Shown: piece by piece, positions 1,568 through 41,352 of the stretch | Layout: every line of letters begins with the position of its first letter | Position numbering within the stretch: position 1 is the first letter of the stretch | IMG/VR virus record: IMGVR_UViG_3300036846_000718 | Location: 1 to 41,352 of that record | Length of the DNA: 41,352 bases | DNA from: a virus | Strand: one strand, 5' to 3' | Program-made: the position numbers and the translations under genes | The notes under the pieces: generated by a model | The model's input: the letters and a program-made list of their open reading frames with translations, nothing else | What the model was told of the DNA's origin: nothing | Database searches by the model: none

Positions 1568-4500
1568 GAGGCTCATCAAAAAGGCTTGCACTTGAAAGCT
1601 GACGGCTGATTTCTTGCCGATGGTTTTGCAAGTACGGCTCAATTTCCCGGGCCAGCTGCTGGGGGTCTTTCACATCCCCTTTTACGGTCAAACTGAACGG
1701 CGCCGTCACATGCACCACCTGCTCAAACTTCGCTCGTTCTGGCTTCACCGGTGGCACCGGCTTAGGCAGTGCCGCACCAGGCTTAACGGTCTGCGCCTGG
1801 GCCAGTGCTCTAACCAGATCGCCAACCTCAGAGCCAGACCCGTTACGCGTAACGCCCTGCCCATCAAGAACACGATCAGGCATCAACGCCGGCGCAGGCG
1901 CGTCCCCCTTGCGCCCGCTAGCAGGCACAACCAGGGGAACCGGCAATAGCAGTGGCGGCCTGTTAGGACGCCCCGAAGGCCCGGCAGGCGCCGCTGGTGC
2001 AGTTACACGCACAACCGGGGCAAGCGGTAGGACGGGCGAAGGGTCACGCCCCAGGGCGCCGCGTAGCGGTCCCAGTGGCGCATTTACCGGCAGCATCGGT
2101 TGACCAGGCGCTGCATCACGCCCAGGAACAGCTGGCACCGTTGCCGGCGGCGCCATCATCTGGACAATCGGCGCCACAGGCCGAACAGGCGCTGCATCAC
2201 GCCCAGGAACAACTTGCACCGTCGCCGGCGGCGCCATCGCATGAACAACCGGCGCCAAAGGCCGAACAGGCGCAGCATCACGCCCAGGTGCAACCTGCAC
2301 CGTCGCCGGCGCCAATGTCACAGGCGCCGCGTTACGGCCAGGCGGCGTAACGGTGCCCGTCCTCGATGTCGGCCCGGGGGCCGGCACCGGTGGCCACTGA
2401 AGCATCAACGGCACCGGCGGAGCCACTTTCGGCGGCGCTTTGAACGACGCGGCAATATCCCCAAGTACCGGCGGAATATTCTTGCCGGCATCGGCCATCA
2501 TCAGAGGCCCGGCCGCAGGCATTACCTTCGTTGCCGGATCACTGCCAAACATGGCCTTGCCGGCATAACCGCCAAGGGCCTGGCCACCGGTACTGCCCAA
2601 GTAAGCCCCGATCAGGCCCCCCACTACGGTGCCAATCACCGGCACCATCGAACCGATGGCCGCGCCGGCCGCAGCACCGGCCAAGGTGCCGGCTAAATTG
2701 CCCGCCGCTTCACCGTAACCCTCAGCCATCTCATCGCGCGTTTCGGCATTGTCGTAGGTGTCCTTGGCCATCAACAGCGAGTCGACCGCCGCAAAAACCG
2801 CCGTACCCTTGACCATGCCGCCGGTATTCATGCCCACACCCTGGCGGACTGGTGCAGGGCGAGCCGAACCCGGTGCAGCAGTAGGCGGAGTTGCTGCCGC
2901 CCGGGCCGCTGGCGAGGACGGCTTGCCCTTCTTGGGTTTTTTGCGGCGCTTACTGTCGCCGGCATCCATGCCAGGACCATCAAGCCCGCCGGCCGGCATA
3001 TTGGTGACGATTACGCGCTGGGGAATGTTGGGATCACCGCCGCGCAGTCCGCCACGGGCGATATTCAGCAGCCCCCGGCCGATTTTCACGCTGTTTACAA
3101 CACCTCGAAAACCGATAAGCCCGGCGGTGATCGCGGCGACACTGGAAACCACCTTGGGCGATTCATCGCCCAGCGAGCTAAGCCCACGCCCAACCCAGGC
3201 CAGGCCATCCGCCACACCGTCCGTCATCGGGCGGATGGCGTCGCCAATCATGCGCATAGAGTCATCCATGCTCTGCGCCATCTCGGCCCACTTCTGCGCG
3301 GACGCCTCCCGGCGCTCGGCCAGGTTTTTATCCAGAATGCCCGTGGCTGACTTGGAGTCGTTCTTGAGCTGTTCGTATAGCGCTTTGTTCTGCGTGTAAG
3401 CCGTGAGGGCGGCTTTTACTTGCATGTCGGCAAAAATATCGCCGGTTCGCAATGCCTGCTCCAAAGAGTCAATCATTGCCTTGGCTTTTACCGGGTCAGT
3501 CTCCTTGTTGATCTTTGCGGTAGCCTCGGCCATTGCCTTGGCTTTCGCCGGGTCCGTCGCCGCAACGTAGCGCTGGGCCAGCGCCAAGCTCGCCTCCAGC
3601 GTCGACATGCCCTTTTGCAGCCCTGTCTGCATGGAACCCTGATAGTCGATCCCGGCCTTTTTGTAGGCCGTGACGGTATCGCGGGCGCCGATTTTCTCCA
3701 TCCAGTTTTTCAGATTGTTGGCCGCCTCATCGGCACCACCTGCAGTTTTCATTTGCACTTGCAGCATGGCGCCCAGCTGCGTCACGGCATCCATGCCGGT
3801 AATGCCCAGCTTACCCATGCCCGCCAGCATTTCCGGTGCCCATCGGGCCATGTCGCTGGCCTCGAAGCTACCGGCCTGGCCCTGATAGGCGATGGCCTCA
3901 AGGGCCTGTTGCATGACCTTGGGGTCAGTGATTTTGGCGTTCTGCCCCAGGGCGTTGATCATCTTGGCGGTGTCTTCAGCTCCCGCCCCCTGGCCCACGA
4001 CGAACTTGGCCGCCGTAGGCGCATACGACAGCGCCTCAGACAGATCCATGCCCGCCCCAACCAGGGAGTTCACCACCTGCGCCACTTCATTGCGGCCCAT
4101 TCCCGCGTCACGGGAAGTCTGCAAAATGGTTTGGGACATTTGCTTTTCTTGCGGGGCATTGGCAATGCCCGCCTTGATCGCAATATCCCGAATGATTGCG
4201 CCATAGTCAGCGCTAACCTTCGTAGGCACCGCCACAGCGGCGGACAACCCCACCGCCTGGCCGACAGTGCTTTTCATGCCCTCGCGGCCGGCCTGGATTT
4301 GCTGGTGGCCCAACGCTTTCAGCTCAGCCTTGCGCGCCGTACGGCCCAACGTCTGATAGGCCTTTTCCAACCGGCCGACCTCGATGCCCTGTTTCTTGAG
4401 GCTGGCCAGGTTGGCATCGAGCTTGGTCAGTAGCGTGCTTGCGCCCTTCTCCCCCGCCAGGTGCGCCTTGCGCCATTCCTCACGAAGCCGGATCGTGTCG

Positions 4501-22293: not shown

Positions 22294-23562
22294 CTAAGCC
22301 AGCCAGCCCGCAGGGTCCAGCGCAGTGGGCTTAACGGCGCGTCTTGCTCCTGTCTTGTCCTGCAACGCGTCAAAACCCTGCGCGTTGAGCCATTCGTGCC
22401 AGCGCTCCAGGGCATCGCGCTTAATGTCCTCGCCTCGGTCTTGAAAGTAGGTCGCCTCCAGATCGCTCAAGGAATGGTTGAGCAACAGCTTGACCACCAG
22501 GCTATCCACGCGAAACTTGGCCCAGCAGGTCCGCGCCAGTTTGCGCAGGTCGTGACTGGTCCAATCGCCGGCACCGTAGCGAGTGAAGACGGCGAACGCC
22601 TGACTACGGGACATGGGCCGGCCGGCACGCGTACTGGATGGGAACAGGTAGGCCCCGTCATACCCCCGCGCCTTCTGGCTTTCTCGGTACCGATCAAGAA
22701 AGGCCACGGCCGCCGGTGTCAGCGGTAGTAGGTGGTCGCGTTTCGACTTGGTATCAGCCCCAGGAATAAACCACTCCCCTTCCTGCAGGTGGACGTTCTT
22801 CCATTTGGCCAGGCGGGTTTCAGTGATGCGCGTACCATGGGCCAGCATCAGCATCATTAAGGCTATGCCCGCTGGATCAGCCTGGAACGCCTCAGCCCAA
22901 TCAGCCAGCAGATCCACCACGACGACATGACGAAGGCGCGCACCCTTGGGCCGGATCTTGACCTTGGTGAAGTTGCCGAAGGTCACACCGGCCATGGGGT
23001 TGACGGTGATTTTCTTCAGGACCAAAGCCCGCGCAAACACCACCTTCAATACGTCCAGGGCTGACTTGGCATAACCCAGGCTGTATTCCTCTTGCATATG
23101 CCAAACCAAATGGCGGTCGAGCGTATCGCGGTTGAGTTTGCACAGCGCCAGTTCGTCCAGGGCGGGCAGCAACTGGCGATTGATTACCGACATCGAGGAC
23201 GCCCGGCGATCCTTGGATAACCCCCTATCAGCCTTTAGGCGGTCGACGTACCAGCGCAGCACCTGGCCAACAGACTCCCAGCCATCCACGGTGGCCACGG
23301 CCGCCGGATCAGCCATTAACCGCGTCATCACCACCGGCACGCTCTCAAGCATCAGCTTGGCCGGCACTTCGGGCCAGTTCGCCGCTTTCCTCCACTTGCC
23401 GCCCTTGTCATAGCGGATCAGGTACCAGCTGCCCTTACTACGGTCGTTACGGTAACGAAAGCGCAGCGGGTGCCGTGGGTCGTTCAGCTCGCCTATGGAA
23501 AGGTCGGCCGCATGCCTCTTAATAGCGGAATCGGAGAGCGGGGCAGTGAGGGTTTTAGCCAT
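22294..23562 (-). CDS. Tyrosine recombinase
   Basis: About 423 residues from the ATG at 23562; a longer frame to 23784 would run into the next gene. The catalytic set is complete: Arg245 (H-G-T-R), a Lys in the beta hairpin (near 272-274), H337-x-x-R340, His363 and nucleophile Tyr372 (T-Y-F). The N-terminal part looks like the SAM-like core-binding domain with an extra arm-binding head. In an ordinary temperate phage this would be the integrase. Here, next to plasmid replication and partition genes, it could also resolve dimers like P1 Cre. It lies inside the early operon in the same direction. Confidence 0.9.
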   Translation of the reverse strand: MAKTLTAPLSDSAIKRHAADLSIGELNDPRHPLRFRYRNDRSKGSWYLIRYDKGGKWRKAANWPEVPAKLMLESVPVVMTRLMADPAAVATVDGWESVGQVLRWYVDRLKADRGLSKDRRASSMSVINRQLLPALDELALCKLNRDTLDRHLVWHMQEEYSLGYAKSALDVLKVVFARALVLKKITVNPMAGVTFGNFTKVKIRPKGARLRHVVVVDLLADWAEAFQADPAGIALMMLMLAHGTRITETRLAKWKNVHLQEGEWFIPGADTKSKRDHLLPLTPAAVAFLDRYRESQKARGYDGAYLFPSSTRAGRPMSRSQAFAVFTRYGAGDWTSHDLRKLARTCWAKFRVDSLVVKLLLNHSLSDLEATYFQDRGEDIKRDALERWHEWLNAQGFDALQDKTGARRAVKPTALDPAGWLA

Positions 23563-23584
23563 GGTGCGGGCCTCAGTAGCGCGC

Positions 23585-23682
23585 GACGTGGTGCCAGCGC
23601 GCGCGTATCGTCTTTTTTCAGGCAAAGCACGGCCGTAGTAGGGCAATGCCTTGCAAAATTTGGGTGTGGTTGACGTGGTACC
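23585..23682. repeat. Direct repeats upstream of recombinase (candidate arm sites)
   Basis: GACGTGGTGCC at 23585-23595 and GACGTGGTACC at 23672-23682, the same orientation, 10 of 11 bases equal, in the gene-free stretch just before the recombinase. They resemble arm-type binding sites, but no core with crossover arms is evident to me. Confidence 0.35.
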
Positions 23683-23711
23683 GAACAGCGGACGCGTTGC
23701 GCGCCCTGGAG

Positions 23712-23990
23712 CTATTGCACGGGTAAGCTGGAGTACCACCAGCGCGTGGCGTGGACGGTTAAGGGCTTTGCGAACATCAGGCAATGCACCCCGGGCGCAC
23801 CCCAGCCCCCGGCGAACTGGAAACCGTCCAGATCCACCCGGGCGCCGATCCTTTCACGCTCGCCCACTTGCAGCTCAGCCGGCAGCGGACCGCGCACAAC
23901 CTCTACATGGATCGCAAAGCCCAGGGCGGCACCCACGGCATAAGGATCAACCCCGTGGAACCCTGCAAAAAGCGGATGAATGTCCATCAT
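23712..23990 (-). CDS. Small unknown protein after Q
   Basis: 92 residues, overlapping the end of the Q-like gene by four bases (ATGA), so it is probably translated with it. Gly-rich and hydrophobic with several His; no membrane segment long enough. I do not recognise the family. Confidence 0.55.
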   Translation of the reverse strand: MMDIHPLFAGFHGVDPYAVGAALGFAIHVEVVRGPLPAELQVGERERIGARVDLDGFQFAGGWGAPGVHCLMFAKPLTVHATRWWYSSLPVQ

Positions 23991-25102: not shown

Positions 25103-25669
25103 TCAGCGGCGGGCCAGTTCTAATTTTTCTTTTCGCACAGTCATCAAAAGGGAATGCAGGCAAGCCGGAGCGAACCCCCTACCCGCCTTAACTGCCAGCT
25201 CTATGGCGGCATTCATTTCTTCAATCGTCACGTTCGTGGCACACCAGCGCCGGAACAAAGCCTGATTATCGGGGTCTGTTCCGTGCTGGTCCGGCATGCT
25301 CAGCTCAGACGTAAACCAGGCGCACCACTGCTCAGCGGTTTTCGGCATGTCGAGCGCCGGCAAGAAGTCCGCAAAGTCCGTCAGCGTTACGCGTAACGGC
25401 GCGCCAGGTTCTTCGCCGCGCGCTTGGGAAAGCCAGCCGTCACTGCTCAAGTAATCCAGCAGCACCGAGGCGTTGAGCGGGCCGGCTTGCAACGCGTCGG
25501 CCCACTCGCTAACGGGTAGCTCGATCACACCCTTGTCGCGCAACGGACTGGCAGCGAACAGCTCCAACAGCTTGATCAGGCGGGCAAAGCCCGCCAGGCC
25601 AAAGCGCTGCTCAACCTTCAGCACGACAGGGCGAGCGGAGAAGCCCGCAGGCAAGTTAACTGCCGGCAT
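25103..25669 (-). CDS. Replication-type protein with winged helix
   Basis: 188 residues from an ATG at 25669 (25678 possible). Residues ~14-35 (K-V-E-Q-R-F-G-L-A-G-F-A-R-L-I-K-L-L-E) resemble the N-terminal winged-helix domain of phage replisome-organiser proteins. A second helical domain near the C-terminus (N-Q-A-L-F-R-R-W ... F-A-P-A-C-L-H-S-L-L) would contact DNA or helicase. Second gene of the early operon after the cro-like gene, where lambda has O-type functions. Confidence 0.5.
   Translation of the reverse strand: MPAVNLPAGFSARPVVLKVEQRFGLAGFARLIKLLELFAASPLRDKGVIELPVSEWADALQAGPLNASVLLDYLSSDGWLSQARGEEPGAPLRVTLTDFADFLPALDMPKTAEQWCAWFTSELSMPDQHGTDPDNQALFRRWCATNVTIEEMNAAIELAVKAGRGFAPACLHSLLMTVRKEKLELARR
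25385..25398. repeat. Palindrome CGTTACGCGTAACG
   Basis: Exact copy, in the replication-type gene. Confidence 0.9.
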
Positions 25670-25916
25670 TGGCCGCATCCGGGAACAGTTTTTTTGCAAA
25701 CGGGGTGTAGATGCCGTTCCAGTCCACCAGCCCCTTGGACTTGAGAACGATGTTTGTGCCGGCAGCAAATGACGGCACGCGCTCCTGGCGGTACCAGGAC
25801 GACACGGTGCGTGTCTTTTCGCCAAGCAGACTGGCGACGGCACACAGACCAGCCTGGCCTAACTTGCCTTCTGACCCGGCGGCGCCGACGATTTCAATCC
25901 ACTTGTTTAGTTCCAC
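25656..25916 (-). CDS. Cro-like early repressor
   Basis: 86 residues from a GTG at 25916. It is divergent from the repressor gene and is the first gene of the early operon, the position of cro. A helix-turn-helix is visible (Q-A-G-L-C-A-V-A-S-L-L-G-E-K-T-R-T-V-S-S-W), and the rest carries aromatic residues as in small phage repressors. It should bind the same TTACAC/GTGTAA operators to end repressor synthesis and damp early expression. Confidence 0.7.
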   Translation of the reverse strand: MELNKWIEIVGAAGSEGKLGQAGLCAVASLLGEKTRTVSSWYRQERVPSFAAGTNIVLKSKGLVDWNGIYTPFAKKLFPDAANAGS

Positions 25917-25930
25917 GAATAGACACCAAT

Positions 25931-25947
25931 TTACACGATTGGTGTAA
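25931..25947. promoter_or_regulatory. Repressor operator O1
   Basis: TTACAC-GATTG-GTGTAA, a perfect 6-5-6 palindrome. It overlaps the last base of the early -10 and the predicted start point, so binding would block pR. A third half-site (ACACC) lies on its left flank. Confidence 0.8.
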
Positions 25948-25976
25948 GTCTATTTCGACTCTATCCCATTTCTCAA
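25947..25976 (-). promoter_or_regulatory. Early promoter pR
   Basis: TTGAGA (25971-25976) and TAGACT (25947-25952), spacer 18, reading into the cro-like gene. Confidence 0.65.
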
Positions 25977-25983
25977 GCTTTTT

Positions 25984-26013
25984 TTGCCGTTATCTCCACG
26001 TAAAGTGTATATT
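25984..26013 (+). promoter_or_regulatory. Repressor maintenance promoter pRM
   Basis: TTGCCG (25984-25989) and TATATT (26008-26013), spacer 18, reading into the repressor gene about 70 bases downstream. An operator lies within the spacer. Confidence 0.5.
25994..26010. promoter_or_regulatory. Repressor operator O2
   Basis: CTCCAC-GTAAA-GTGTAT, a weaker 6-5-6 copy (one good GTGTA arm, one degenerate arm) inside the pRM spacer. Suits low-affinity autorepression. Confidence 0.6.
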
Positions 26014-26085
26014 TCCTCCGATAGAAGCTAGTATTAAACAATTGCCAAGGCGTGAAACCTCACGGCGCCCTTTGAGAGATTGCGC

Positions 26086-26751
26086 ATGTCTGATTTGATA
26101 ACAGTTGTGTCCCAGCGGCTTAAAGATTGTCGCCAGGCCACGGGCTGGACCCTTGAGGAAACAGCCAAGCGGCTGACTGACTTATCGGGCAAGCCCATGA
26201 CTTATTCCCGCTATTCAAACTGGGAACTCGGGCTGCGCATGCCGCCAACTGACCAAGTTGTGTTGCTTGCCAAGCTGTTCGGCAAGACGCCGGCATGGCT
26301 TCAGGGCTACACCGACAACGACAGTTTGAGTGCGGTAACATCCAACTACGTGACAGCCAACCCACCGAATATCTCGACAAAAAACGGCCTACTGATCCTC
26401 CCGCAAGTCACTGATAACACGGCCTTCAGCCTGGGCTACATTGAAAGCCGCGGACTGAATCGCAACAAGCTGCTTTGCATTAAGCAGATAGATAGCAGCA
26501 TGGCACCGCTTATTGCTGAAGGCGCTGAAGTGCTGCTAGACGGTGATCAAGTCACCGTAAGGGGGGCCGATTTGTTCGGCATCGTAGTGGCGGGTACAGT
26601 CTGGATTCGCTGGATATGCCCCGAACTTGATAACACCTTTACCCTCAAGGCTTCAGACACCCAACAATACCCTGATAGCAAAATGACACGTCAAGAGCTG
26701 GACCAGCTGGATATAGTGGGCCGCGTGGTGCGCATATCCCACGACCGGTAG
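26086..26751 (+). CDS. CI-like repressor, probably not self-cleaving
   Basis: 221 residues from the ATG at 26086. An XRE helix-turn-helix covers residues ~8-62 (L-E-E-T-A-K-R-L-T-D-L-S ... Y-S-R-Y-S-N-W-E). The C-terminal domain (about 95-221) has the S24 peptidase fold with S-S-M-x-P, nucleophile Ser138. At the spacing where LexA has its Lys (+37) the residue is Arg175 (W-I-R-W), and the linker has no Ala-Gly or Cys-Gly pair. It should therefore repress and dimerise but not cut itself on RecA contact. It keeps the early, late and perhaps rep promoters off; induction is likely through an antirepressor. Confidence 0.88.
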   Translation: MSDLITVVSQRLKDCRQATGWTLEETAKRLTDLSGKPMTYSRYSNWELGLRMPPTDQVVLLAKLFGKTPAWLQGYTDNDSLSAVTSNYVTANPPNISTKNGLLILPQVTDNTAFSLGYIESRGLNRNKLLCIKQIDSSMAPLIAEGAEVLLDGDQVTVRGADLFGIVVAGTVWIRWICPELDNTFTLKASDTQQYPDSKMTRQELDQLDIVGRVVRISHDR

Positions 26752-27131: not shown

Positions 27132-27548
27132 ATGAATGCCTGTGTTCAAATCCACGGCGACGAAGTGATCGGCTATCCTGGCCAGAACCTGACAGATAGA
27201 GAGCTGTTCGTTCTGGTCAAAACAGCCGAGGGCTTTCCTACTCCGACCATTGCTGAAGAATTGCAGCTTGACGACATTGGCATGCGAATGGTCGAGCGCA
27301 ACATTCTGAGTAAGCTTGGCGCCAAGAACAAAGCACACATGATCACGCGCGGCTTCACGCTGGGCGTACTGGTCCCCCAGGCGCTGTGCCTCATGCTGTG
27401 CGTGATTGCCGTCTTGGAAGTCGACACCGATATGAACCGCACCCGCTCCCAGCGCCGTAGCCGCACCCTTACCGAAAACTCGCGCAGCGTGCGCACTTCC
27501 CCGGCCTCGGCCGGCGGCCCTCCCTCACGCCAAACCCTTTACGTCTGA
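27132..27548 (+). CDS. LuxR-type helix-turn-helix protein
   Basis: 138 residues. Residues ~19-75 are a GerE/LuxR DNA-binding domain: L-T-D-R-E-L-F-V-L, I-A-E-E-L, V-E-R-N-I-L-S-K-L-G-A-K-N-K-A-H. No ligand domain precedes it. A hydrophobic stretch (about 78-95) follows, then a Ser/Arg-rich tail. It is under the CI-type operator through the gene before it. In Vibrio phage VP882, also a phage-plasmid, a LuxR-type receptor controls lysis, so a signalling or regulatory role is plausible but not shown. Confidence 0.75.
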   Translation: MNACVQIHGDEVIGYPGQNLTDRELFVLVKTAEGFPTPTIAEELQLDDIGMRMVERNILSKLGAKNKAHMITRGFTLGVLVPQALCLMLCVIAVLEVDTDMNRTRSQRRSRTLTENSRSVRTSPASAGGPPSRQTLYV

Positions 27549-27674: not shown

Positions 27675-28322
27675 GTGGCACTACGCATTGGCTTTGCATC
27701 ACAGAAGGGTGGCCCTGGCAAATCCACCGACGCACGCGGCACCGCCGTGGGACTTGCGCAGAATGGATGGGCAGTAAAAATTGCTGACTTCGACCTAAAC
27801 CAGTCCACCAGCGCGCTCTGGAACGTACGCCGAATGAAGCGCGGCCACTCACCAGAAATTTCAGTCGAACAGTTCGGCGGCGTGGCTCAAGCTCTGGCGA
27901 AGTCCGGCGACTATGACGCCATCATTTTTGACGGCGCGCCGCGTGCAAGCAAGGACACGGCCGCGATGGCTGAAGCCTGCGATTTGCTGGTTATCCCTAC
28001 CGGCTTATCCCTGGACGATCTTGAGCCCGCTGTATCGCTGGCAGATGCCCTGCATTTTAAACATGCCATTCCGGTTGAACGTATTGCCTTCGCCCTTAAT
28101 CAAGTAGGTGACAGCCAGGCGGAACTGGATGAAGCCCGCGAATATTTGGCCGGCAAGCCTTACCACGTTTTGGATGGCCACCTACCTAAAAAGGTCAGCT
28201 ACAGCCGCGCTATGGATGTAGGCCTATCAGTTATCGAGGTGTCCCACAAAGGCCTTCGCATCCAGGCTGAACAGCTAATAAGCGCGATCATCGCGCGCGC
28301 AACTGCGCTACAATCCAAATAA
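27675..28322 (+). CDS. parA: ParA partition ATPase
   Basis: 215 residues from a GTG at 27675 preceded by AAGGA. The deviant Walker A Q-K-G-G-P-G-K-S-T is at residues 10-18 and I-I-F-D-G-A-P forms the Walker A' strand. It lacks an N-terminal DNA-binding domain, as in type Ib plasmid ParA proteins, so repression is expected to come from the small partner. Followed by a ribbon-helix-helix gene and a terminator, and preceded by repeat arrays: a complete partition locus. Confidence 0.93.
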   Translation: MALRIGFASQKGGPGKSTDARGTAVGLAQNGWAVKIADFDLNQSTSALWNVRRMKRGHSPEISVEQFGGVAQALAKSGDYDAIIFDGAPRASKDTAAMAEACDLLVIPTGLSLDDLEPAVSLADALHFKHAIPVERIAFALNQVGDSQAELDEAREYLAGKPYHVLDGHLPKKVSYSRAMDVGLSVIEVSHKGLRIQAEQLISAIIARATALQSK

Positions 28323-28359: not shown

Positions 28360-28617
28360 ATGACTGTTGCCGCGCCAAAACCACCCCGCAGAACATCCAC
28401 GAAGGGCACCGCTCCAGCAGCACCACAAGCCGCCGAAGCGGCCTTGAAAGCTGGACACACACACCAGGCAGGCCCGGAAGATTTGGTAACAGCCAACTTC
28501 AAGGTCGACGCGCAATTCAAGCACGAAGTGAAGATGTTCGCCGCCATGCACAAGATGAGCATGGTCGACGTATTCCGCCAGGGCTTCGCCTTACTCAAGG
28601 CATCCAAAGGCGGATAG
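28360..28617 (+). CDS. Ribbon-helix-helix partition partner (ParB/omega-like)
   Basis: 85 residues; AAGGAAGG lies just upstream. First ~45 residues are basic and disordered, typical of the ParA-contacting tail of small centromere-binding proteins. Residues ~46-80 (T-A-N-F-K-V-D-A-Q-F-K-H-E-V-K-M-F-A-A-M-H-K-M-S-M-V-D-V-F) form one beta strand and two helices, the ribbon-helix-helix fold. Such proteins bind arrays of 7-8 bp repeats as dimers side by side, which matches the six octamer arrays here. Proposed role: binds arrays, segregates DNA with ParA and represses linked genes. Confidence 0.82.
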   Translation: MTVAAPKPPRRTSTKGTAPAAPQAAEAALKAGHTHQAGPEDLVTANFKVDAQFKHEVKMFAAMHKMSMVDVFRQGFALLKASKGG

Positions 28618-32148: not shown

Positions 32149-32192
32149 GTTTGATGCTCCTTTTTTATCAGGGTTTTCATCCTGCAGGATGA

Positions 32193-32420
32193 TCAGTCAT
32201 CCGCCGGCCGCTGCAATGCCGCCTGGACATCGGCGTCGGCCAGCAGCTGGTGCAGCTGATCGGCACGCATGGCCATCTGTGCAGCGTCCAGGCGCATCTG
32301 TGCCACAGCGTCGTGCACGTCCACCGGCTGGCCTTTCAACAAGTCGCCATAGCCTTCTTGGTCCAGGGTGTCGCTGACCTGGGCATAGGTGGCGGCCTGG
32401 GCCGGGGTCAGAACGGGCAT
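32193..32420 (-). CDS. Small helical unknown protein
   Basis: 75 residues, entirely helical and acidic (T-P-A-Q-A-A-T-Y-A-Q-V-S-D-T-L). The palindrome CATCCTGCAGGATG lies just past its stop. Role unknown. Confidence 0.45.
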   Translation of the reverse strand: MPVLTPAQAATYAQVSDTLDQEGYGDLLKGQPVDVHDAVAQMRLDAAQMAMRADQLHQLLADADVQAALQRPADD

Positions 32421-32429
32421 AGGCCGAAC

Positions 32430-32633
32430 CTACCGCTGAACCGGCTTGGATAAACACGCCAGGCGCGTCTTTCCCGTGTCGTTTGGCTTCGCGCAGTATT
32501 CAGCTCGCGCGGCGTTCCGGGCCCCGTTATCCAGATAGACGAACAAGGCAAAGCCGAAGAAAGCCAGAACGCAAAGCCACACAAAGAAGTCACCACGACG
32601 GGTAGCGGGCAGTTTTTTTACAGCGGTATTCAT
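32430..32633 (-). CDS. Small single-span membrane protein
   Basis: 67 residues from the ATG at 32633. A hydrophobic stretch (F-V-W-L-C-V-L-A-F-F-G-F-A-L-F-V-Y) at about 17-35 is flanked by R-R before and a Cys-containing tail with C-A-K-P-N-D after. Likely an inner-membrane protein of the maintenance region; function unknown. It overlaps the gene upstream by four bases. Confidence 0.6.
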   Translation of the reverse strand: MNTAVKKLPATRRGDFFVWLCVLAFFGFALFVYLDNGARNAARAEYCAKPNDTGKTRLACLSKPVQR

Positions 32634-33633: not shown

Positions 33634-35277
33634 TTATTCACCTGGCTGCTTGCGGTAGTCGGTCGACAGACCAGCCGCGCGCAAGCGGTCCTCCCAGGTC
33701 TTGATAGCGCTGTGCGCCTTGTTGCGCTCGCTTTCCAATAGCTGGTTTTCTCGCTCCAGCGCTGCCACTTTCAACCGCAAAGCGTCGCCGTCCAGGGCGG
33801 TTTTATTCAACTCGCTTGGCGCAGAAACAGGTGCACCAACCTCCGCAGCAATCTCATTCAGCGCTGCTTTCAGGCGCGCGATTTCCGCGCGATCAGCGGC
33901 CCGATCCTTGAACAGCTGGACGTTTTGCTTTCGCTCATCCTCGTAGTGTTTCCAGCCGCGCTTAGCCTCTTTATCCCGGTGTTTGTTACCGTTAATAATT
34001 CCCTGATCCTGATCAAGCTTGGCCTTAAGGTCTTCGGTCCAGAAGGGGCAGCCTTGGAACATCTTTTCTAGGCTCTCCAAAACGTGCGGTGATTTCAGGT
34101 GATCGAGGTCAGCCCGGGCCGTGAAAAACACACTGAATGCCCATAGGATCAGCGAGTCCTCATCCCGGGTCAGCTGCACGGTGCGCGTCCAGCTATGCGG
34201 ATCATCAGCAGACACGATTACTTGGCCTGCAACTGGCTCCCCTGCGCGCAACGCTCGGTTTTCAATCTCAAGGCGGGTGACTCTCTCGCGCTGATACTTC
34301 AACTCATCGTGCAAGAACCCAGCAGGACGGCGGGTGCTGCGCTCAGGCTCGGCCAAATAACGGCCGTCATCGCCTTCTGGCCACAGCTTATTCAGCAGCG
34401 CATCAAAACCAGGCTTTTTGCTGATCGCCCAGTCCTTCGGCCGGTGAAACAGATCCTCATGGGCCAGCACACCCAGGCTCAATATCATCCGATCTTCTTG
34501 AGTCAGCGGAATGAGCTTAAGGCCTTCGGTCTGCGCGCGCTCCTTGAGGCGCTGTCGGTGCAGCTGCTGCCGCTTGGCGTTGCTCAGAGGCACCTTCGCG
34601 GCCGGCTCAGGCAATTGCGGCTCACCCGACAGCGGCATATTCAATTGGCCGTTACGCGTAACACCTTGCAACGCCGGCACAAGCCAGCCCGGTACCGAAA
34701 CCTTAGCGCGCTCACCCTCACGGATAACCTTGGGCTTGAACTCCCCCTGTAGCAAATGCTCCACAAGTTCGCGCACGGCCAGGCCCAAAGAGCGCCCGAC
34801 ATGCTTGTTAGGGTGCAGGAACTGGCTCAAGTATCCGGTTTCGCTGATGAATTTGGCCGAAGCATCAATAGCGTGGAAGCTCAAGTTGTGGATGCCGTTA
34901 ATGCCCCAGGGGCTGACCTCAACACGTAACCGCATGCCATCGACCTCAAGCAAATACTCACCAGCCTGGCCCCAGCCTGGCACCACACCCGCCGGCGCCG
35001 CCAACAGCTTGAGCAACTGGCCGCCTGCGCCGTCTTCTGTGCCACTGCCCATGAAGGTGTCGCCGTGCAGCCGATAGACCACGGCACGATACCGAAGAGC
35101 TGACGTTTCGATATCCCGGGCACTAGCGGCGGTCATTGCGTCATTGAACAAGGCCAACATGTCGCGGGCCAGCTGCTCCAACTCGCCACGCTCAGCCGGC
35201 AAAAACTCAAGGGTCTTGAGGAACAGCGGCTGCTGCTCCAGCGGCAAATCATCGGCGGGCAGTTTCTTCTTAGCCAT
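33634..35277 (-). CDS. Large unknown protein with C-terminal coiled coil
   Basis: 547 residues; GGAG lies nine bases before the ATG at 35277. First ~200 residues alternate strand and helix, with G-D-T-F-M-G-S-G-T-E-D-G-A-G-G-Q-L-L and an E-V-S-P-W-G-I-N-G segment. Residues ~330-547 are rich in E, K and R and form several heptad-like coiled coils, as in KfrA-type plasmid proteins. Its length and place in the plasmid region suggest a DNA-organising or replication-accessory role. Family not recognised. Confidence 0.6.
   Translation of the reverse strand: MAKKKLPADDLPLEQQPLFLKTLEFLPAERGELEQLARDMLALFNDAMTAASARDIETSALRYRAVVYRLHGDTFMGSGTEDGAGGQLLKLLAAPAGVVPGWGQAGEYLLEVDGMRLRVEVSPWGINGIHNLSFHAIDASAKFISETGYLSQFLHPNKHVGRSLGLAVRELVEHLLQGEFKPKVIREGERAKVSVPGWLVPALQGVTRNGQLNMPLSGEPQLPEPAAKVPLSNAKRQQLHRQRLKERAQTEGLKLIPLTQEDRMILSLGVLAHEDLFHRPKDWAISKKPGFDALLNKLWPEGDDGRYLAEPERSTRRPAGFLHDELKYQRERVTRLEIENRALRAGEPVAGQVIVSADDPHSWTRTVQLTRDEDSLILWAFSVFFTARADLDHLKSPHVLESLEKMFQGCPFWTEDLKAKLDQDQGIINGNKHRDKEAKRGWKHYEDERKQNVQLFKDRAADRAEIARLKAALNEIAAEVGAPVSAPSELNKTALDGDALRLKVAALERENQLLESERNKAHSAIKTWEDRLRAAGLSTDYRKQPGE
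34650..34663. repeat. Palindrome copy CGTTACGCGTAACA
   Basis: Copy differing at the last base, in the long coiled-coil gene. Confidence 0.8.
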
Positions 35278-35703: not shown

Positions 35704-35732
35704 ACTTTAAATTGGTTTCGTTAATTCGTCAA
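35704..35732 (-). promoter_or_regulatory. Promoter with -35 in octamer unit
   Basis: TTGACG (35727-35732) lies in the octamer AATTGACG; TAAAGT (35704-35709) is 17 bases further. It reads into the gene starting at 35652. Confidence 0.7.
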
Positions 35733-35758
35733 TTCGTTATTTCGTTATTTCGTTATCT
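35719..35758 (-). repeat. Octamer array D
   Basis: Five units (plus strand: CGTTAATT, CGTCAATT, CGTTATTT, CGTTATTT, CGTTATCT). It contains the last six codons and stop of the gene 35737-36156 and the -35 of the next promoter. Confidence 0.9.
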
Positions 35759-36156
35759 GCTCGCTTTGGCGCCTCGGCCAAACCCGCGTAAATGCTCAGC
35801 AATCGCCATACCGCGTAGGGCATATCGGCCTTTTCAGCACTTGCCCACTTACGAATCTTCCGGGAGTCGACCCCCACTAACATGCCGGCCTCACTCCCGG
35901 ACAAACCCGCAACCCTCAGCAGCTCGCGAAATTCTGCCGCCGTTGGTGCCGTCCAGTCAGGTGCGTACGGTTCGAATAGACCGGGGCGATCAAGCGCCAA
36001 TTCCTGGCGCACCTGATCAGCAGTCATCGAGCGCGGCGGATCGCCTGGCACTACCAGTTGCGCCGCATCGAGACGCAGAGCCGCGCGCATGGCCTCTAAA
36101 AAATCCGGCACATCTATTTCCGTGCGTGACCCGTCACGCAGTAGCAACGCAAACAT
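35737..36156 (-). CDS. Helix-turn-helix regulator
   Basis: 139 residues; GGAGG seven bases upstream of the ATG at 36156. A long N-terminal part has D-A-A-Q-L-V-V-P-G-D and a Pro-rich linker. The C-terminal half is a XRE-type helix-turn-helix (F-R-E-L-L-R-V-A-G-L-S-G-S-E-A-G-M-L-V-G-V-D-S-R-K-I-R-K-W). A hairpin of 11 bp (36175-36199) and an octamer array lie upstream. Likely a plasmid regulator; target unknown. Confidence 0.65.
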   Translation of the reverse strand: MFALLLRDGSRTEIDVPDFLEAMRAALRLDAAQLVVPGDPPRSMTADQVRQELALDRPGLFEPYAPDWTAPTAAEFRELLRVAGLSGSEAGMLVGVDSRKIRKWASAEKADMPYAVWRLLSIYAGLAEAPKRADNEITK

Positions 36157-36174: not shown

Positions 36175-36201
36175 AAACCGCCGGCAGTGCCGGCGGTTTT
36201 T
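36175..36201. terminator. Strong hairpin upstream of regulator
   Basis: AAACCGCCGGC and GCCGGCGGTTT form a perfect 11-bp stem with a 3-base loop and a T5 run on the plus strand and T3 on the minus. It lies between array E and the start of the minus-strand regulator. Works as a terminator for the gene upstream, or as an attenuator. Confidence 0.7.
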
Positions 36202-36233
36202 CGTTATTTCGTTAAATCGTCATTTCGTTACTT
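36202..36233 (-). repeat. Octamer array E
   Basis: Four units (plus strand: CGTTATTT, CGTTAAAT, CGTCATTT, CGTTACTT). It overlaps the end of the gene 36220-36534. No good promoter embeds in it. Confidence 0.85.
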
Positions 36234-36534
36234 TCTCAGGACACCGCCGCACCTTAACGGAAACGCCGGCATTCCAGCACGTCCAACCGGACGGCGAAGC
36301 GAGCAACCCCACGCGGCCATAATCCTCGCACAAAAAATAGCCCTGGGCTTCCAGCCAGATACCTATGTCTATCAGTTGCGACCTGTCTATAACAGACCTC
36401 TTGCGAAACTCTGGTACCGCCAGCAACAGGCAGTCGCGTTGCGTGCCGCCGGCGATGCGCGCGTTAAGTTGGATCGCGTAACGGTCAAAAAATGCCGCCT
36501 TCAAAGCCACAACATGCGGTTCTTGCTTGGTCAT
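36220..36534 (-). CDS. Unknown protein of octamer regulon
   Basis: 104 residues. Mixed alpha/beta with A-F-F-D-R-Y-A-I-Q-L-N-A-R and W-L-E-A-Q-G-Y-F-L-C-E-D-Y. Its promoter is a near copy of that of 35326-35652, and its untranslated leader also shares a G/C-rich segment with it. Function unknown. Confidence 0.6.
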   Translation of the reverse strand: MTKQEPHVVALKAAFFDRYAIQLNARIAGGTQRDCLLLAVPEFRKRSVIDRSQLIDIGIWLEAQGYFLCEDYGRVGLLASPSGWTCWNAGVSVKVRRCPEKVTK

Positions 36535-36584: not shown

Positions 36585-36613
36585 ACCTTATTTCTATTTC
36601 GTTAATTCGTCAA
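36585..36613 (-). promoter_or_regulatory. Second promoter with -35 in octamer unit
   Basis: TTGACG (36608-36613) within AATTGACG and TAAGGT (36585-36590), spacer 17. Same design as the promoter at 35704-35732. Confidence 0.65.
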
Positions 36614-36631
36614 TTCGTTATTTCGTTACTA
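36600..36631 (-). repeat. Octamer array F
   Basis: Four units (plus strand: CGTTAATT, CGTCAATT, CGTTATTT, CGTTACTA). Confidence 0.88.
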
Positions 36632-37284
36632 GGGCAAATTCACCTGCCCGGGCGACTGCTCGCCCACCGAACCCGCCTGCCATCGGCTGGGAGGGCGCGC
36701 ACCGCCCGCGCGCCCAAGCCATTCGGCTTCGCCTGAAACGTCTGTAACAGGCGCTGACGCGCTGGCAGGCCTACAAAGCTCGGGAGGGAACCCCCCTCAC
36801 TGATCACTGGAGCGCTTGCGCGACCGACTGGGCGTAGCCGGCGCGTGAAGGAGCGAAGGGACGTTGCAGGGCGTAGGGGTGTGAACCCTGGGTAAAACGT
36901 CCCACAGCGACTGGAAGGCGCCTCGCTGACGGAACGGCGGCACTGCTGCCGCAGAGGGGTGTACTTGCCCCGCGCCTCCAGGCGCGAAGTGGGCAGGCAT
37001 TCTTATTCCGTCAGTCCGTCATGCACAGTTGGCACGGTTGTTGAGCTTTAAAGCGGATCTTTAAAAGCCCTTCGGTACCAGTAGGCACCTAATCTTGCAG
37101 ATATTTATAAGCCCTACAGAGGCCCGGCCGGGCTGACGACTTTTTCAGCCGGCCGCGATGCTTTGAAGGTGCGTAAATGGGGTGTGACGGGGGGGAGGGA
37201 GTAGCGTTGTAGGCGCCCGGAAGGGCTTTGGCGGGGTGCAGACGTGCGAAGGCACCGCCGGGTAGCGGTGCGCGTAAAGGGGGT
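36632..37284. other. Gene-free stretch downstream of rep, probable origin
   Basis: About 650 bp without a convincing gene. In IncFII-type replicons the origin lies just downstream of repA; here the rep gene ends at 37285 on the minus strand, so this is that side. It holds a perfect 8-bp hairpin (GGGCGCGC/GCGCGCCC, 36693-36715), further GC-rich stems near 36970, and an AT-rich patch at 37040-37110. No good DnaA box or iterons are seen. Small frames here look like shadows. Confidence 0.45.
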
Positions 37285-38178
37285 CTAGGGGAGACTGTCG
37301 GGGTGTATGGCGAAGTGCGGGTATTGTTTCGCAAATGCCTGGGCGCGCTCACGGGCGCCGAGTTGAGGATTAGCCTGCACAAACTCAACGTAGGCACCGG
37401 TCCAGGCGCGTTTGTACTCGACCTTATCGACCTGTTGCTTTTGCTGCTGCGCACGCCTGGCTGCACGCTGGGCCCCCTCATGGGAGTCCTTGCGGACCTT
37501 GGCGGCCGCTTGCTCTTTGGTGTAGGCGGCTTTCTGATTATTCTGGGCCACGCCCAGGACAGTACGACGCTCTACACGCTTGCGCGTCTGTGCTTCGGCC
37601 AGCTCATGCCCCAGGCCGAGGTCGATAAAGAAACGGCGGCGTACATGCAGCGTTACGCGCGTTATCCATTTCGTCCCTTTGTGGAAAATCCGCCGGAACT
37701 TGCGGCGCACGTAGCCCGCGCGCTCCAGATCGCTCAGCAGACGCGATAGCGTCCACTCACGAACGCCGGAATCCTCGCACAGCTTGCGCTGGCGGTTAAC
37801 GTGCATCTTGCCATTCTTGTCCAGCCAACCGACCACCAGTTGCGCCAGGTCGAGCCGCGCGCACAGTGGCCCAATCAGCTCGGCCAAGGCGTCCCATCGT
37901 TGCTGGTAGGTGCGGGAATCGTTGATATCGTCGAAGCGGCGCAGGAATTTTCCCTCGCGCTTGTCGGCTTCTTCGTGAACGCGGGCAATGGTCTTATTGA
38001 ACAGGCCGCCAAACATGCGCCCCTGGTCAGGCGTGACGCCTGTTTGCCGGCGCTGCTGACCTGTACGGTCGCGCAACGGCAGCTTTTTACGCTTGGGCAG
38101 AAGTTCGGGGATATCGGACAGGCCGGCATAAGCCGCGGCCTCTACAGAGCCTGGCAGAATTTGGCTAAATGACCTCAC
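37285..38178 (-). CDS. Replication initiator, RepA (IncFII/I-like)
   Basis: 297 residues from a GTG at 38178. The longer frame is avoided because this GTG overlaps the stop of a leader peptide (GTGA). Middle residues show a winged-helix (R-K-L-C-E-D-S-G-V-R-E-W-T-L-S-R-L-L-S-D-L-E-R-A-G-Y-V) followed by basic segments, in line with IncFII/IncL/M RepA proteins. C-terminus is Gln/Ala-rich and helical. Binds the origin and recruits host replication proteins. Family assignment rests on layout (leader peptide, antisense RNA) as much as on the sequence. Confidence 0.75.
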   Translation of the reverse strand: MRSFSQILPGSVEAAAYAGLSDIPELLPKRKKLPLRDRTGQQRRQTGVTPDQGRMFGGLFNKTIARVHEEADKREGKFLRRFDDINDSRTYQQRWDALAELIGPLCARLDLAQLVVGWLDKNGKMHVNRQRKLCEDSGVREWTLSRLLSDLERAGYVRRKFRRIFHKGTKWITRVTLHVRRRFFIDLGLGHELAEAQTRKRVERRTVLGVAQNNQKAAYTKEQAAAKVRKDSHEGAQRAARRAQQQKQQVDKVEYKRAWTGAYVEFVQANPQLGARERAQAFAKQYPHFAIHPDSLP

Positions 38179-38288
38179 AGGGCACCGCCAGCAGCCGGAT
38201 ACCGGCGCAGGGCGCAGGCCAGGGGCTGCAAATCTATGCGCCCCCGCACAATGCCGGGACGGCCTTCTAATGAGGCTTCGCCAATCAT
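38175..38288 (-). CDS. Leader peptide coupled to rep
   Basis: 37 codons from the ATG at 38288 (AGGGA eight bases upstream). Its TGA stop overlaps the rep GTG as GTGA, classic translational coupling. It corresponds in position to tap of IncFII and repY of IncI. The ribosome binding site lies in the downstream arm of a 6-bp hairpin (38297-38311). The peptide is basic and need not have a function of its own. Confidence 0.75.
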   Translation of the reverse strand: MIGEASLEGRPGIVRGRIDLQPLACALRRYPAAGGAL

Positions 38289-38296
38289 CCAAACTT

Positions 38297-38311
38297 CCCT
38301 AGTTGCTAGGG
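38297..38311 (-). promoter_or_regulatory. Hairpin covering leader peptide ribosome binding site
   Basis: CCCTAG and CTAGGG with a 3-base loop; the second arm holds the AGGG that precedes the leader peptide start. Closing it would lower leader and so rep translation. Confidence 0.55.
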
Positions 38312-38312
38312 C

Positions 38313-38341
38313 TTGCTTATGCGGTGATCAGCTAATAGACT
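38313..38341 (+). promoter_or_regulatory. Promoter of antisense RNA
   Basis: TTGCTT (38313-38318) and TAGACT (38336-38341), spacer 17, reading away from rep into the terminator-like stem at 38387-38421. Confidence 0.5.
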
Positions 38342-38347
38342 TCTACC

Positions 38348-38421
38348 TGCCCGGTAGTGAAGCCTTATTGTGCTGATTACCAGAAGCCCCCGTCCCGCCA
38401 AGGTCGGGGGTTTTCTTTTTT
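38348..38421 (+). ncRNA. Antisense RNA controlling rep (CopA/Inc-like)
   Basis: About 74 bases. It ends in CCCCCG-T-CC / GG-T-CGGGGG arms (38387-38395 and 38402-38410) with a loop of exactly CGCCAA (38396-38401), then TTTTCTTTTTT. The rep mRNA carries the complement: a stem with loop UUGGCG. That loop pair is the known kissing site of IncI, IncB, IncL/M and IncFII copy-number control. A smaller hairpin (CTACC/GGTAG) lies at the 5' end. Size fits Inc RNAs of about 70 bases. Confidence 0.78.
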
Positions 38422-38507
38422 AAGCCTGCCTAAAAATTTCTAATTCTTCGTAACTGCTGTGCCCCGCAGGGCTGACGGCGCTCAGAATAACGCGCCAATC
38501 TTTAGTC

Positions 38508-38532
38508 GTCCACAATTAGTGTAAATTTACAC
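38508..38532. promoter_or_regulatory. Composite repressor operator upstream of rep
   Basis: Read on the minus strand it is GTGTAA-AT-TTACAC followed by TAATT-GTGGAC, almost the same as the composite at 21754-21778. It overlaps the stop of the small gene 38527-38709 and lies before the rep leader. It suggests that the repressor influences rep transcription. Confidence 0.6.
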
Positions 38533-38709
38533 TTTCCTCAGCGAAACAATAGCCTGCCGCAACATCTCCAGTTGCAGCGCTTCCCCTGGGTGCGCTGTGT
38601 CGTCGTTGGCTTTCTGTATGCACAACAACTCTATGTAGCAATTAATCGCGTCGATAGTAGACGCTTGGTCACTTTTGATCAAAGGGTTTGCAGAGGGTGT
38701 GTTCGACAT
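38527..38709 (-). CDS. LexA-controlled 60-residue protein, candidate antirepressor
   Basis: 60 residues; AAGGAG lies five bases before the ATG. Ser/Asn/Pro-rich start, then two helices (T-I-D-A-I-N-C-Y-I-E-L-L-C-I-Q-K and L-Q-L-E-M-L-R-Q-A-I-V-S-L). Two Cys in the first helix. A near-perfect LexA box overlaps its promoter, so it is made after DNA damage. Gifsy-type phages with non-cleavable repressors use small LexA-controlled antirepressors of this size. The same transcript can run on into rep. Function is inferred from position and control. Confidence 0.65.
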   Translation of the reverse strand: MSNTPSANPLIKSDQASTIDAINCYIELLCIQKANDDTAHPGEALQLEMLRQAIVSLRKV

Positions 38710-38769
38710 AGGGGCTCCTTCCTACAGCAGTCATTCAAGTGCGAGTGCGACGATTCCGTACAGGATCGT

Positions 38770-38793
38770 ATAATACTGGTTATTTAAACAGTA
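38770..38793 (-). promoter_or_regulatory. LexA box with SOS promoter
   Basis: TACTGGTTATTTAAACAGTA (38774-38793) has CTG-N10-CAG with matching T and A flanks, the LexA consensus. TATTAT (-10) at 38770-38775 overlaps its edge. It reads into the 60-residue gene. Confidence 0.85.
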
Positions 38794-41204: not shown

Positions 41205-41232
41205 TAGACTCAGGGCCTGGCCGCTATAGAAT
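41205..41232 (+). promoter_or_regulatory. Candidate sigma70 promoter of the moron gene
   Basis: TAGACT at 41205-41210 and TAGAAT at 41227-41232 are separated by 16 bases and point towards the secreted-protein gene (44-502 after closing the circle). The gene lies against the direction of the surrounding late operon, so it needs a promoter of its own. Confidence 0.5.
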
Positions 41233-41352
41233 TTGCGGCTGATTAATCAGCCAGTAAGGAATGAATGGATGAAACGGATTTGCCTAGTGGGCTTGCTCGC
41301 CTGGGCCGCCCTGCCCGCCATCGGCCAGGAAAAGCTCAGGATTATTGACCTG
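41226..41352. repeat. Right copy of 127-bp terminal direct repeat
   Basis: Second copy of bases 1-127. It carries the promoter-proximal part and first codons of the secreted-protein gene whose full copy lies at 44-502. It is a duplicate of sequence, not a second gene. Confidence 0.95.

Follow-up and report, generated by a model that had tools for sequence, protein, structure and literature searches.

The 60-aa protein encoded directly upstream of rep in this phage-plasmid is probably an SOS-induced antirepressor that acts directly on the phage CI repressor. The gene, the LexA box ahead of it, the conservation of both, the loss of the catalytic Lys of CI and the co-inheritance of the small protein with CI are established at the sequence level, and from these we infer that LexA binds the box, that the small protein binds CI, that induction follows and that transcription reads through into rep. 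The box and the small gene recur across many related viruses with a repressor that apparently cannot cut itself, indicating that the gene probably encodes a protein that disarms this repressor.

The window, meaning the whole stretch of DNA that was analysed, is an IMG/VR virus record (1-41352; 41,352 bp). Comparison of its ends revealed a terminal direct repeat of 127 bp, identical at 1-127 and 41226-41352, indicating that the window closes into a circle of 41,225 bp. Among its genes are the late genes of a contractile tail and those for an integrase, a repressor of the CI type, ParA and a replication protein. Its relatives, about 36-56 kb in size, are complete circular plasmids bearing phage genes. 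Given the circle, the phage genes, ParA, the plasmid-like Rep and the circular-plasmid relatives, the element is best read as a circular, plasmid-maintained and presumably extrachromosomal temperate phage, that is, a phage-plasmid. The nearest named hosts were Pseudomonas maioricensis and P. fluorescens, in which the contigs are phage-plasmid-sized, and megablast of half of the window against named phages gave zero matches. The genes outside the immunity and rep regions that are needed here are as follows.

22294..23784, minus strand: tyrosine integrase/recombinase, with the ORF-scan coordinates (phrog_1, E 8e-45)
27675..28322, plus strand: ParA-type partition ATPase, a phage-plasmid feature (phrog_164, E 5e-32)
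28360-28617: small gene next after the ParA gene

The integrase probably starts inside the listed ORF, at about 23568. An ORF with a signal-peptide-like start runs from 41269 across the circle junction to 502 (plus strand), between the tail genes and gene D; being opposed to the direction of the late operon, it is likely a moron. Short repeats of the TTCGTTATTTCGTTA type lie ahead of several ORFs downstream of rep (about 35708-35760, 36198-36240 and 36590-36630) and are possible iterons, partition sites or regulatory repeats.

The proposed antirepressor gene and its LexA box lie upstream of rep.

38527..38709, minus strand: 60-aa small protein, proposed SOS-induced antirepressor, upstream of rep
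38774..38793: LexA (SOS) box TACTGGTTATTTAAACAGTA, reading TACTGTTTAAATAACCAGTA on the gene strand, upstream of the 60-aa gene

Homologues of the small protein (43-97% identity) were encoded by 18 IMG/VR contigs, indicating that the 60-aa ORF is a real gene, and all 18 carried a LexA box at a similar distance. Searches with tblastn located homologues on plasmids of Edwardsiella ictaluri, Aeromonas veronii, A. caviae, Vibrio parahaemolyticus and P. aeruginosa, as well as in Vibrio phage VPHZ6, and by way of CI homologues the small gene was also found in P. lundensis, Delftia, Halomonas, V. cyclitrophicus, V. campbellii, V. alginolyticus, Vibrio sp. HDW18, Pseudomonas phage PARCL1pr and Vibrio phage K303. 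These relatives go down to about 16-25% identity, with the locus between the late genes and rep, and a core N-x-L-(I/V)...DT...G motif is kept among the distant members. In the named relatives a gene of 64-78 aa, unannotated in P. lundensis, stands just upstream of the rep-position gene and has a perfect CTG-N10-CAG box 33-88 nt 5' of its start.

The AlphaFold2 model of the small protein is a helical hairpin (helices 9-34 and 43-58; mean pLDDT 81), and Foldseek of this model against PDB and BFVD returned generic helical hairpins only (best E 1.7 and 0.26, respectively). Searches of Pfam, NCBIfam and PHROG with E up to 1 gave no convincing family and no DinI match, and no paper on the family was found in the literature searched, which leaves out most subscription journals. 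In the window some 12 kb separate the small gene from cI, and the two genes stand apart in every relative as well. The SOS unit of the small gene contains no other gene ahead of rep, and no regulator gene adjoins the small gene in the window.

A sequence-only reading of this DNA had placed a LexA box upstream of a 60-residue gene on the same strand as rep, and this was borne out. We scanned the window for TACTGT-N8-ACAGTA, allowing one mismatch over the 12 fixed positions, and the box at 38774-38793 was the sole match, with none found in 100 dinucleotide shuffles. It differs from the consensus by one mismatch (CTGG for CTGT) and is the top LexA-like site of the window. The bare CTG-N10-CAG core was dropped as evidence for LexA, as its 19 matches in the window against 12.3 expected show it to be common by chance. 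A LexA box was present 33-93 nt upstream of the small gene in every intact locus examined, comprising 18 IMG/VR contigs, 3 GTDB contigs and 16 named phages or plasmids from Gamma- and Betaproteobacteria. When 17 whole or nearly whole genomes were scored, the box had the top LexA-like score, alone or in a tie, in each of the 16 that bear the gene. The sole exception was the dimeric plasmid pHN2, in which the box is missing and the small gene decayed, and its sequence reads as a natural loss of both. The small gene is very probably under LexA control.

The same reading had the box overlap a promoter. In five Vibrio relatives a TTGNNN-N17-TCTAAT promoter does lie directly 5' of the LexA box, but the point is unclear in the window, where a consensus promoter scan gave zero matches and any promoter at the box is unrecognisable by consensus. 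Second strong LexA boxes were seen in three members: at 2159 ahead of a hypothetical gene in P. aeruginosa, at 37242 ahead of a DNA adenine methylase in P. lundensis, and at 33686 ahead of umuD in V. campbellii. A P. luteola plasmid with a related rep and a different repressor has two adjoining LexA-like boxes at 3683-3734, just past the D gene.

Two palindromes flank the coding sequence.

38750..38769: second conserved palindrome, ACGATCCTGTACGGAATCGT (CGATTCTAGATAGAATCG in siblings), directly 3' of the LexA box
38519..38532: perfect palindrome GTGTAAATTTACAC, spanning the stop codon of the small gene

The palindrome at 38750-38769 occurs nowhere else in the window. It is perfect in one sibling (CGATTCTATATAGAATCG), it holds a -10-like TAGAAT in siblings, and P. 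aeruginosa has another perfect palindrome, TATAGGCGCCTATA, at the equivalent place. It is a putative operator to which a second regulator may bind; a role as CI operator was rejected because the palindrome is absent near cI. The palindrome over the stop codon was unchanged in 11 of 11 siblings, has GTGTAA/TTACAC in common with the cI-cro region, and its half-sites occur in the cI-cro intergenic region. These features are suggestive of a possible phage operator, and as a CI operator tying CI to rep it is no more than a hint, since the sharing of an 8-mer is expected by chance and distant relatives have no such palindrome.

We then come to the repressor, which is the presumed target of the small protein.

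26086..26751, plus strand: CI repressor with a helix-turn-helix and an S24-type domain (PHROG and Pfam matches)
25918..25954: cI-cro operator-like inverted repeats, AATAGAC...TTTACACGATTGGTGTAA...GTCTATT

The core of the cI-cro inverted repeats is kept in siblings, one of which has TTTCACAC. To read the catalytic dyad, CI was aligned with 12 homologues and, as an outgroup bearing the Lys, with the CI-like repressor encoded on a conjugative plasmid of V. cholerae, which keeps both Ser and Lys. The window CI has the catalytic Ser (DSSM), Arg in place of the catalytic Lys (VWIRW) and no linker Ala-Gly. Thus the loss of the Lys, proposed from the sequence at the outset, was upheld, and the linker Ala-Gly proved absent as well. 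The Lys was also missing from 11 siblings and from all distant homologues whose reading covered this position. In the partner CIs, Lys is replaced by Arg in all and Ser by Ala in several; the Ser is lost along with the Lys in Halomonas, V. campbellii, HDW18 and pHN2. Compared with S24 repressors of the self-cleaving lambda CI/LexA type, the window CI retains the Ser and has neither the Lys nor the linker Ala-Gly, and it is predicted to be unable to cleave itself. In phage VPHZ6 the S24 domain of CI carries an internal deletion (25649-26167) and in plasmid pVPGX2 CI is frameshifted (32160-32594); both have an intact small gene and LexA box.

We assessed the co-inheritance of the small protein with other proteins by Mantel correlations across 13 genomes. 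The small protein correlated with CI (r=0.74, p=0.0001), did not correlate with Rep once CI was accounted for (r=0.02) and did not correlate with TerL (r=-0.07). With all other tested genes held constant the link to CI was r=0.33 (p=0.008), and CI was the best single partner among the genes correlated. Between Delftia pHQS1 and PARCL1pr, the small protein is 96% and CI 95% identical, against 48% for Rep and 23% for ParA. By these measures the small gene is inherited with the distant CI and not with the adjacent Rep or with TerL. Two genes downstream of cI, a1 and a2, tracked the small protein nearly as well as CI (r=0.70 and 0.68), indicating that the small gene belongs to the immunity module rather than to a rep unit, and that another protein of this module could be the partner.

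The region between the small gene and rep has its own features.

37285..38178, minus strand: Rep, plasmid-type replication initiator, start corrected to GTG 38178
38175..38288, minus strand: 37-aa leader peptide of rep (MIGEASLEGRPGIV...), with its stop overlapping the start of rep
38300..38425, plus strand: predicted antisense RNA over the rep leader, with two stem-loops (z-score -4.22)

Homologues of Rep sit on Pseudomonas plasmids, and its position matches that of an A. caviae gene annotated 'plasmid replication protein repA'. The rep ORF does lie downstream of the small gene as first drawn, but its start at TTG 38292 is probably wrong; the overlap of the leader stop with the rep start makes GTG 38178 most likely. 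The leader peptide with an ATGA or GTGA overlap was found in 12 of 13 siblings tested, and P. aeruginosa also has a rep leader peptide, with a common GRP motif. Across 12 phages the 234 bp from the small gene to the drawn rep start had 92% mean column identity, and the small protein there goes down to 62% identity. Because this leader hardly varies, RNAalifold covariation in it was uninformative, and an Rfam search of the rep and small-gene region, including the predicted antisense RNA and the leader, gave no family. In several known plasmid replicons, the synthesis of Rep is limited by an antisense RNA and by coupling to a leader peptide. In sequence and folding, the layout of the window fits IncFII/IncI-like replicons, with an antisense RNA that faces the rep leader and a leader peptide coupled to rep, and Rep synthesis is most likely limited here by the predicted antisense RNA and translational coupling.

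The claim that no clear terminator separates the small gene from rep held for the rep strand, but the opposite strand has one: the terminator scan identified the second stem-loop of the predicted antisense RNA as a terminator (stem 38393-38409, with a T-run). In the P. aeruginosa and P. lundensis relatives, a hairpin flanked by T-runs on both sides lies between the small gene and rep. Even in relatives with a different rep, the box ahead of the small gene is retained. SOS read-through into rep that raises Rep, as the sequence-only reading had proposed for lytic replication, is possible but has no specific support, given the conserved leader, the coupled peptide and the predicted antisense RNA.

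These observations suggest the following mechanism. In a lysogen, host LexA would hold the small gene off, and CI, unable to cleave itself, would hold the lytic genes off. DNA damage would remove LexA, so that the 60-aa helical-hairpin protein is made; this protein would bind CI, probably at its C-terminal domain or dimer, and free the lytic promoters. Some transcription probably continues into rep, where translation of Rep would be separately limited by the coupled leader peptide and the antisense RNA. The earlier idea that an SOS-made small protein inactivates a non-cleavable repressor thus gained strong comparative support from the kept box, the lost dyad and the co-inheritance with CI, while binding and induction are predicted from these features. 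A more speculative extension, which we hold only tentatively, is that one SOS transcript does two jobs: its first gene, from a protein family not described before, would disarm the catalytically dead CI, and read-through over the rep leader would override the antisense RNA copy-number brake. If true, this would let a plasmid prophage of low copy number become a replicating phage in one step in many circular phage-plasmids.

The position of the small gene could also mean that its product is an SOS-induced replication accessory or a copy-number regulator of Rep and that the two genes form one operon, while phage induction is triggered elsewhere. In every relative the small gene does sit immediately ahead of rep, on the rep strand, and the conserved leader separates the two; however, the small protein did not follow Rep once CI was accounted for (r=0.02), unrelated Rep proteins are accompanied by the same gene and box (the window versus Aeromonas or P. 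lundensis), and Rep homologues occur on ordinary Pseudomonas plasmids that have no detectable small-protein homologue. We consider this role unlikely. About as improbable is that the small protein spares CI and modulates SOS or the host, either as a DinI- or PsiB-like RecA modulator or as an inhibitor of division or replication like Fil and Dhr of phage 186. Small LexA-controlled proteins of such kinds are common, and a dinI homologue is paired with the antirepressor in Gifsy operons (PMC3121763), but the small protein matched neither DinI nor any other family and no second gene shares its SOS unit ahead of rep. The small protein evolves along with the immunity module, and covariation with CI would not be expected of a protein with a host target; without the small protein, moreover, these phages would have no evident route from SOS to the non-cleavable CI, which also counts against a host target.

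The covariation with the immunity module leaves room for a target other than CI, such as the helix-turn-helix protein a2 encoded after cI (27132-27548), through which the small protein would affect CI or lytic expression indirectly. The small protein covaries with a2 (r=0.68, and r=0.41 after correction for CI), and Par-linked TF-smORF pairs exist in other phage-plasmids (PMC10432266); yet the correlation with CI was the strongest and was still significant after correction for a2 (r=0.55), and known SOS antirepressors work directly on the repressor, so that we rate an indirect action somewhat lower again. Least credible of all, to the point of being negligible, is a chance match to the LexA box, with the small gene constitutive or unrelated to SOS. 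The mismatch in the box and the abundance of the CTG-N10-CAG core in the window would allow for it, but the shuffles gave no such site and the box is kept in all intact relatives despite widely differing protein sequences. A LexA-controlled protein acting directly on CI is the reading we prefer.

Known LexA-controlled antirepressors offer points of comparison. Tum of phage 186 stops CI from binding DNA. In the 186 genome stretch, the top LexA site is at tum, and 186 CI is without the catalytic Lys (AISIREL). The window protein resembles Tum in its LexA box and its partner CI without Lys, but Tum has 146 aa, includes a DinI-like half and follows replication gene A instead of preceding rep, and hhalign of the two proteins gave a probability of 0.2%, that is, no homology.

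GfoA, GftA and GfhA of Gifsy-1/2/3 are very small, LexA-controlled and encoded far from the immunity region (Lemire 2011, PMC3121763); they are needed because the Gifsy repressors are not cleaved, and expression of gftA alone induces the prophage (PMC3121763). By description, the window shares with Gifsy a tiny, very probably LexA-controlled protein encoded far from the immunity region and a repressor predicted not to be cleaved. The Gifsy phages, in contrast, are integrated in Salmonella and have an operon with a dinI homologue, whereas the window is a phage-plasmid in which no partner gene accompanies the small gene ahead of rep.

The N15 antirepressor is LexA-controlled (Mardanov and Ravin 2007, as cited in PMC10432266, PMC3121763 and PMC11652158). 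The top-scoring LexA site in the N15 stretch searched stands before a small ORF without annotation, about 73 aa long (15563 onward), which is likely the published antirepressor gene, and the CB repressor is without Lys (ITIQRL). N15 is thus a phage-plasmid with a LexA site before a small ORF and a repressor without Lys, as in the window; it differs in being a linear protelomerase plasmid, in the locus and in having no detectable sequence similarity.

Phage VP882 has a CI with a complete dyad (GDSM, FKQL) and the Ala-Gly, and no comparable LexA site was found in this phage. All three reference phages, 186, N15 and VP882, thus fit the expected pattern. In the TF-smORF modules and VqmA-Qtip of linear plasmid-like phages, a small protein encoded near replication or partition genes inactivates CI (Silpe 2023, PMC10432266). 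These small genes are switched by an adjoining transcription factor, independently of SOS, in phages with a self-cleaving CI, and the survey left out non-proteolytic repressors, the class studied here (PMC10432266). The window resembles these modules in having a small, proposedly CI-targeting protein near plasmid replication and partition genes. It is unlike them (repA-telN or par locus) in having no adjoining regulator, a LexA box, a CI without Lys and an integrase, not a protelomerase.

With Tum, Gifsy and N15, the window shares a LexA box, an apparently non-cleavable partner and a locus outside the immunity region. The small-protein family is apparently unrelated to these antirepressors, the Gifsy proteins being compared by description. 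The best reading is that the logic of the mechanism is that of Tum, Gifsy (PMC3121763) and N15 (PMC11652158), with another protein family doing the work across a broad set of phage-plasmids.

The group includes the phage-plasmid NZ_OR552796.1, which has the carbapenemase gene blaVCC-1 between its tail genes, and its P. aeruginosa members carry mercury resistance transposons. The non-cleavable repressors of this broad, mostly circular group of phage-plasmids gain a predicted SOS trigger. With members in P. aeruginosa, Aeromonas, Edwardsiella and Vibrio, one of them bearing blaVCC-1, the finding bears on the timing of any mobilisation of resistance phage-plasmids under DNA-damaging drugs. The presence of the LexA box and small gene, as against an intact CI dyad, may predict from sequence which phage-plasmids answer SOS and how.
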